64,000 bases of DNA, taken from contig NZ_CP100448.1 of the NCBI RefSeq assembly GCF_024227715.1, positions 2,873,655 through 2,937,654 on the forward strand, written 5' to 3'. The notes beneath the pieces were generated by a model. It was not told the DNA's origin. It saw nothing but the letters and a program-made list of their open reading frames with translations, and made no database searches. Positions within the stretch are counted from its first letter, which is position 1; every line of letters starts with the position of its first letter. Below, one piece after another: positions 55,250 through 55,874 of this stretch. The DNA is from Halomarina litorea (GTDB lineage: Archaea; Halobacteriota; Halobacteria; Halobacteriales; Haloarculaceae). The translations under genes were made by a program, and so were the position numbers.

Positions 55250-55510
55250 GCGTGCGAGGTTCGTAAACCCCCCGCGTCGCGTTGCGCGTTCCGCTACGCC
55301 CTCGTCGGTCCACCGCGAGCGCCACGCATGGACATCGTCGACCGCTTCTCCGAGGCCATCCCCTTCGCCGACCACCTCGACATCGAACTGGACGAGGTGG
55401 GCGACGGGCGCGCGGTGGGCCACGTCGACCTGCGCGAGGAACACTCCTCGAACCCCGCGAGCATGGTCGCCCACGGTGAGGTGGCCTACTCGCTCGCCGA
55501 CACCGTCGGG

Positions 55511-55568
55511 GTTCACGAGAGCGGATCGCTCGTGCGCTAACCGAAACGCGTCGCGTTTCGGTGATGGG
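55511..55568 (+). mobile_element. 58-nt double-hairpin insertion 1 in the thioesterase gene
   Basis: The insert begins GTTC and holds a bulged stem CACGAGAGCG-GAT-CGCTCGTG (55514-55534), linker CGCTA, and a second stem ACCGAAACGCG-T-CGCGTTTCGGT (55540-55562), then GAT and a repeated GGG. Flanking GGG (55508-55510 and 55566-55568) may be a 3-nt target duplication. Confidence 0.65.
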
Positions 55569-55682
55569 GCGGCCGTCGTGGACCTGAACGAGACGGTCAC
55601 GCCCACCATCGACGTTCGCATCGACTACCTCGCGCCCGCGACGGGCGAGCGACTGGTCGCGGAAGCGGAGGTCACGCGGAAC

Positions 55683-55740
55683 GTTCGAAAATCGCTTCGC
55701 GATTTTCGCAGCCAACCAGAAATCTCCGATTTCTGGTGAC
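55683..55740 (+). mobile_element. 58-nt double-hairpin insertion 2 in the thioesterase gene
   Basis: The insert begins GTTC and holds stem CGAAAATCGC-TTC-GCGATTTTCG (55686-55708), linker CAGCCA, and stem ACCAGAAATC-TCC-GATTTCTGGT (55715-55737), then GAC. ACG occurs at both edges (55681-55683 and 55739-55741). Length, order and GTTC / GGTGA ends equal insertion 1 while the stems differ. Confidence 0.65.
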
Positions 55741-55874
55741 GGAAACAGCGTCGCTACCGTCGATATCGACGTCGAGGATGGCGAGGGCACGCACGTCGCC
55801 TGCGCGGGGTCTACAAGACGGGCGGGGTGGACGGGCGGACGCCGTGGACCGCCGGGACGGACGACCGGTAGTAC

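Follow-up and report, generated by a model that had tools for sequence, protein, structure and literature searches.

Short double-hairpin elements form a multi-copy haloarchaeal family and are probably mobile

A family of short elements, ~51-58 nt long and consisting of two hairpins with conserved single-stranded linkers, occurs in many copies in haloarchaeal genomes. It is likely that these are non-autonomous mobile elements, selected for the structure of their DNA at transposition and probably moved by a single-strand (HUH-type) mechanism. Two copies interrupt one gene in the window, that is, the whole analysed stretch of 64,000 nt (G000:C1:2873655-2937654) of the 3.88 Mb genome of Halomarina litorea (G000, referred to here as the own genome).

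The interrupted gene belongs to the 4HBT-superfamily thioesterases, a family assigned from the uninterrupted orthologue in G001. Uninterrupted orthologues were found in the same genus (G001, with 84% amino acid identity, G005, G006, and G007) and in more than 30 other genomes. The features in the window are as follows:

55328..55871, + strand: host gene, 4HBT-superfamily thioesterase, now a pseudogene with two insertions and a third frame-shifting difference.
55508..55511, + strand: GGGG, the target tetramer to the left of copy 1 (GGTG in the G001 orthologue).
55512..55566, + strand: double-hairpin copy 1, 55 nt long, from the covariance match and the empty orthologue; hairpin 1 at 55514-55534, linker CGCTA at 55535-55539, hairpin 2 at 55540-55562, right end GATG at 55563-55566.
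55680..55683, + strand: AACG, the target tetramer to the left of copy 2 (AATG in the G001 orthologue).
55684..55741, + strand: double-hairpin copy 2, 58 nt long, from the covariance match and the empty orthologue; hairpin 1 at 55686-55708, linker CAGCCA at 55709-55714, hairpin 2 at 55715-55737, right end GACG at 55738-55741.
55798..55816, + strand: third lesion, approximate place, from comparison with G001; GCCTGCGCGGGGTCTAC here and GCCACCGCTCGGGGTGTCTAC in G001, with 14 nt instead of 18 after GCC.

Copy 1 has the layout TT + CACGAGAGCGGATCGCTCGTG + CGCTA + ACCGAAACGC-GTC-GCGTTTCGGT + GATG, and copy 2 the layout TT + CGAAAATCGC-TTC-GCGATTTTCG + CAGCCA + ACCAGAAATC-TCC-GATTTCTGGT + GACG. The presence of two double hairpins in one gene, which an earlier note had pointed out from the letters alone, is far beyond chance (model E ~8e-19 and ~5e-22). 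The covariance matches extend over 55508-55566 (E 7.8e-19) and 55680-55741 (E 5.1e-22) in a search of the own genome with a model to whose construction both copies had contributed; independent support comes from the covariation over 98 copies and from the near-absence of matches in non-haloarchaeal genomes. The same note had given both insertions as 58 nt long. This was incorrect, as comparison with the uninterrupted orthologue yields 55 nt and 58 nt, and both copies break the reading frame. The empty sites in this orthologue (G001, L133) read ATCGGTG|GGGCC for copy 1 and CGCAATG|GGAAC for copy 2. With both inserts removed, the thioesterase frame reaches ...THVACA and is then lost at the third difference. 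The idea that both copies had once been in frame and acquired indels later was dropped because 55 nt is the usual size for copies with short stems (L011 and many copies in G004 and G037), and the CAGCC linker occurs elsewhere too.

The region was used as a query for a DNA search of the own genome, which revealed seven more places of this layout, with stems that partly differ. Covariance model R1 was built from seven copies, two of which were smoothed by one base for alignment. With this model, 29 distinct full-length places were found in the own genome at E <1e-5, in agreement with the expectation that further copies should exist. Matches at the same threshold were present in 52 of 59 haloarchaeal relatives, with a maximum of 53 in a single genome; Halorarius litoreus, Haloferax prahovense, and Haloferax massiliensis are among the named carriers. 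In a sample of 197 genomes of the phylum, nearly all haloarchaea had matches and only one weak match fell outside the order, a large contrast, although the E-values of R1 are rough. Among plasmids, only haloarchaeal ones carried matches, and no exact match to the hairpin-2 pattern was found on viral contigs. Rfam contains no family for the element and returned one chance microRNA match, far under its threshold. No description of a double-hairpin family of this kind was found in the open-access literature, to which the search was confined.

The base pairing of the stems is conserved much more strongly than their sequence. In 98 distinct copies, all 20 base pairs were changed on both sides. Standard pairing was found in 95.1% of cells compared to 74.5% after shuffling, and the covariation score was 0.502 compared to 0.160 after shuffling and 0.04-0.10 with slid partners. 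Fitting of the alignment to the model raises these counts somewhat, but the slid controls, which use this very alignment, drop off. The proposal that pairing and layout, not sequence, are kept is therefore strongly supported. The stems comprise 9-10 bp and the loops mostly 3 nt. The unpaired parts are conserved as RRCG|TT, a middle AGCCA-like linker, and ...GAYG, with TT directly after the target in 85 of the 98 copies. Quasi-palindromes can arise by template switching, and the stems of some copies are unrelated to each other, as would be seen if these were ordinary coding sequence or local palindromes made independently and not a family. This explanation is extremely improbable and already contradicted by linkers, ends, and spacing that are conserved across the order, and by clean empty sites in orthologues, which do not carry the same bases as coding sequence.

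The very strong covariation could also be taken to indicate a structured RNA or mRNA element that works in place, as a terminator, stability element, or regulatory RNA, and is kept as useful to the host. Some intergenic copies indeed lie within a larger, conserved fold that is multibranched and has a paired outer stem. Against this reading, which we regard as unlikely, many copies are in frame inside unrelated enzymes whose orthologues are without them, there is no Rfam family, and the DUF460 site points the other way. At this site, the own genome and G001 share the hairpin-1 type, and the differences between them are mostly synonymous and non-compensating; G003 carries a wholly different stem, possibly due to an independent insertion at the same target. 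In this small sample, the peptide is kept after insertion and the pairing may drift. This suggests that the covariation has its origin among copies that are mobile, and that mobility, not a function in place, is what demands it. The earlier claim of selection for cruciform or RNA structure is partly supported: the data tend to favor a DNA structure needed for mobility over an RNA structure, because the few in-gene copies that could be followed by descent retain the peptide while their pairing drifts. A greater decay of pairing in the in-gene copies was considered, but no difference in pairing quality was seen between in-gene and other copies, within a set selected by model score and biased towards good pairing.

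Many intergenic copies form the core of a ~190-nt multibranched fold (L080, L083, L084, L088, and L090 in G037; L097 and L104 in G052; L073, L110, and L117 in G006). In order, it has a GACTGAAAGGGGC-like motif, an outer stem, and the double hairpin, followed by GACGACGCAAGCACCG, an imperfect hairpin (the third), and a GGGGCTTTC-like motif that closes it. Its outer stem of up to 19 bp differs between copies and yet pairs. Rfam has no family for the larger fold, and these copies could be a part of the family with an RNA role.

The ends of the element were defined from the same 98 copies. The left tetramer is GACG in 50 and GGCG in 26 of them, and the right tetramer is GACG in 84 and GATG in 8. 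The left tetramer is the target, an RRCG-type tetranucleotide that the element directly follows on the 3' side. The right one is part of the element itself, as it remains GACG next to GGCG targets. This right end, GACG or GATG, is also retained beside GGGG, AACG, or GAGA targets, and there is therefore no clear target duplication, although a very short one (2 nt, CG) would still be compatible with the ends. The 3-nt flanking repeats suspected earlier fared differently at the two window copies. ACG fits copy 2, while GGG at copy 1 is not a duplication because the orthologue has GGTG|GGGC there and this copy ends in GATG on the right.

Empty sites were compared directly for the thioesterase gene, the DUF460 gene, and the genes of L009, L010, L015, L020, and L021. 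The DUF460 gene reads TTCGACG|GCGAACAC in relatives, with exactly 57 nt extra in G000, G001, and G003. Comparison of empty and filled sites gave CGCGACG|GCGAGG for a Rieske-like gene, GAAG|ACGG for the gene of L015, GGACG|TCATC for the NikR-like gene of L009, and GGCG|GACAGG for the endonuclease III gene. The absence of a duplication together with a 5' tetramer target is the single-strand insertion pattern of the IS200/IS605 type, and the geometry of the element matches it. A classical MITE-like element, with a target-site duplication of 3-4 nt made by a DDE-type transposase or another duplicating integrase, would explain why GACG stands on both sides of many copies, for example at the DUF460 and universal stress protein (Usp) sites, and why the left and right triplets are identical in 52 of 98 copies. 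It is nevertheless quite improbable: no more than these 52 agree, the right end is constant next to differing targets, and there are no terminal inverted repeats beyond the hairpins. Integron attC-like recombination, with its G|TT boundary and structure-only sites, was also considered and found unsupported beyond resemblance.

Several copies lie inside the end palindromes of IS200/IS605 elements (L055, L056, L058, L018, L022, L116, L218, L222, and L230). For L218, L222, and L230, empty palindromes (L219, L226, and L231) are found beside the filled ones, as far as the IS ends can be read by eye, and L222 holds two double hairpins in tandem within such a palindrome. Separately, head-to-tail chains that share a GACG linker (hpA-AGCCA-hpB-TGACGTT-hpA...) were seen in G052 (L092, L089, and L093) and in G044 (L118, L127, and L130). 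These appear to result from insertion into the end of earlier copies.

Copies inside genes show a strong bias of orientation and phase. Host genes were recognized by a codon model from the window, which is blind to genes of unusual composition, and the following tally therefore holds for ordinary host genes only. Of 24 independent sites, 22 are in sense in one phase (GAC GTT ...) and 2 are antisense. Given that 34% of GACG on either strand of the window genes falls in that class, the probability is P ~6e-9, or P ~3e-8 if the antisense site in the TnpB tail is added as one more. The latter is a recurrent antisense, in-frame copy that occupies the corresponding place in the TnpB C-terminal tail across genomes (L306 on a Halorussus halophilus plasmid, L118, L124, and L212). 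The reading frame is kept by 17 of the 22 sense copies (57, 54, and 51 nt). For random lengths, the chance of this would be 3e-5, although the length of a copy also depends on its subfamily. The in-frame reading is hydrophilic and stop-free, e.g., DVRETRSDSRANQNAERSGDD. As judged from the frame, in-frame copies would add about 19 residues (VRESxxDSRANQNAERSGDG-like in the 57-nt form). The hosts include endonuclease III, the DUF460 protein, a universal stress protein, a Hef-like helicase, a P-type ATPase, and a carboxyltransferase. In G006, the only detected glycyl-tRNA synthetase locus carries a 57-nt copy in frame, which is absent from six congeners, the own genome included. Sense, in-frame placement is best explained by protein-level selection acting once a copy has inserted. 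Tolerance of the site would follow from its frequent Asp-Gly context (GAC GGN), which is often a surface turn.

Two further sites were noted. In two Usp genes of the own genome (L011 and L017), the codon of insertion is identical (LVPTD|GSD and LVLTD|GSD), with one copy in frame (54 nt) and the other frameshifted (55 nt). In a P-type metal ATPase, one site is filled in the own genome, in Halorarius, and in two Haloferax species (L033, L126, L070, and L072), and elsewhere (L263-L266) holds an unrelated insert of the same length (G001, G006, and G007) or none.

Mitochondrial double-hairpin elements and bypassing elements look alike, and one copy lies within a presumably essential synthetase. Both points would fit an insert that leaves gene products normal, being spliced out after transcription as a bulge-helix-bulge intron or skipped by the ribosome as a translational bypassing element. 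We consider this very unlikely because most copies in genes that look intact have a length divisible by three, lack stops, and can be read in one hydrophilic frame, all of which would be needless, and the frame-breaking window copies sit in a gene with further damage. The splicing endonuclease of H. volcanii strictly requires an hBHBh' motif (PMC7714728), which counts against an intron. General folds of copies with their flanks showed two hairpins and no evident motif of this kind across the junctions.

In the preferred reading, mobility by single-strand transposition, the element would move in the form of folded, single-stranded DNA, as IS200/IS605 (HUH) elements do. An HUH-type enzyme would read the hairpin shape and the terminal tetranucleotides, and since recognition would rest on these, the stems could drift while pairing holds. 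Sense copies would persist in working genes because RRCG in that phase typically specifies Asp/Asn/Gly followed by a G-codon, often in a surface turn, and the 57-nt form corresponds to 19 stop-free hydrophilic residues. The window thioesterase received two frame-breaking copies and, with its further lesion, is a decaying pseudogene.

A search for the Y1_Tnp family (PF01797) found no such gene in the own genome, which has about a dozen TnpB-type matches (PF07282) and no TnpA (Y1_Tnp) gene. Of 14 other genomes with many copies, PF01797 was present in seven and absent from seven (G001, G003, G005, G007, G011, G037, and G052). Therefore, no enzyme is assigned to the proposed HUH-type movement. It may be that the mover was lost, that it comes from elsewhere, or that it belongs to another family. 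The same puzzle of a missing transposase has been stated for bacterial CGTC-REPs (PMC3733652), and that of an unknown mover for the SMRs (PMC3119063).

Mitochondrial double-hairpin elements of fungi and algae are mobile and, like the haloarchaeal element, combine two hairpins with sequence-variable stems and conserved pairing; they belong to eukaryote organelle genomes and are likened here by layout, not sequence. REPINs also share paired hairpins and short end tags and are thought to move as single strands. However, they are defined by GTAG tags and by a RAYT (Y1) gene, whereas the element ends in RRCG and GAYG and no such gene is present in the own genome. The earlier statement that no haloarchaeal element of this form has been named needs to be qualified by closer analogues, namely, SMR-A and PATEs (PMC3119063) and the CGTC-tagged REP dimers and RPEs (PMC3733652).

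SMR-A of Haloquadratum walsbyi is likewise haloarchaeal and transposase-free, makes no target duplication, has an unknown mover, and is inserted in near-terminal palindromes of IS605-type elements (PMC3119063). In contrast to the element, with its 51-58 nt and no prominent terminal inverted repeats, SMR-A is ~110 bp long, has such repeats, and is known from one species. The PATEs of haloarchaea share palindromes near both ends and the lack of a target duplication and a transposase, and their terminal-only versions measure ~52 bp (PMC3119063). Their palindromes are related in sequence to IS605 ends and PATEs are usually longer, whereas the element is inserted into such ends, as read by eye. The CGTC-tagged REP dimers, described from bacteria and including Rickettsia RPE-4 and RPE-6 (PMC3733652), share the CGTC tag at the end (the right GACG of the element, in 84 of 98 copies, is CGTC on the other strand, with RRCG as the target on the left), short hairpin pairs in multiple copies with variable stems, and in-frame copies inside enzymes (17 of 22 sense sites for the element). 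They also share the lack of a dedicated transposase, for the element judged by the PF01797 search (absent in the own genome and in half of the relatives tested). They differ in stems of 8-9 bp, loops of 4-5 nt, and CCA tails, compared to 9-10 bp, mostly 3 nt, and the AGCCA-like linker; furthermore, the haloarchaeal stems diverge almost completely. Because loop size and tail differ, we treat the element as an archaeal variant rather than as a member of the CGTC-REPs. A 2025 survey of REPs covered archaea for intergenic palindromes only, and its text contains no word beginning with "Halo" (PMC12306157).

REP/RPE-type elements have been described mainly from bacteria, and a comparable family is now seen in nearly all haloarchaeal families sampled. 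It shows exceptional covariation of the stems, clean pairs of empty and filled sites, and in-frame copies in conserved enzymes. More tentatively, and with some doubt on our part, this may be an order-wide element whose heritable identity lies in shape and short linkers, whose stems are renewed with pairing retained, whose mover is a hairpin-reading enzyme outside the known RAYT/TnpA group, and whose protein-friendly unit adds in-frame segments time and again to conserved, even essential enzymes. With this family, tractable haloarchaea can be used to test which enzyme moves CGTC-type palindromes that have no transposase of their own, and by what route small repeats extend proteins with new segments.
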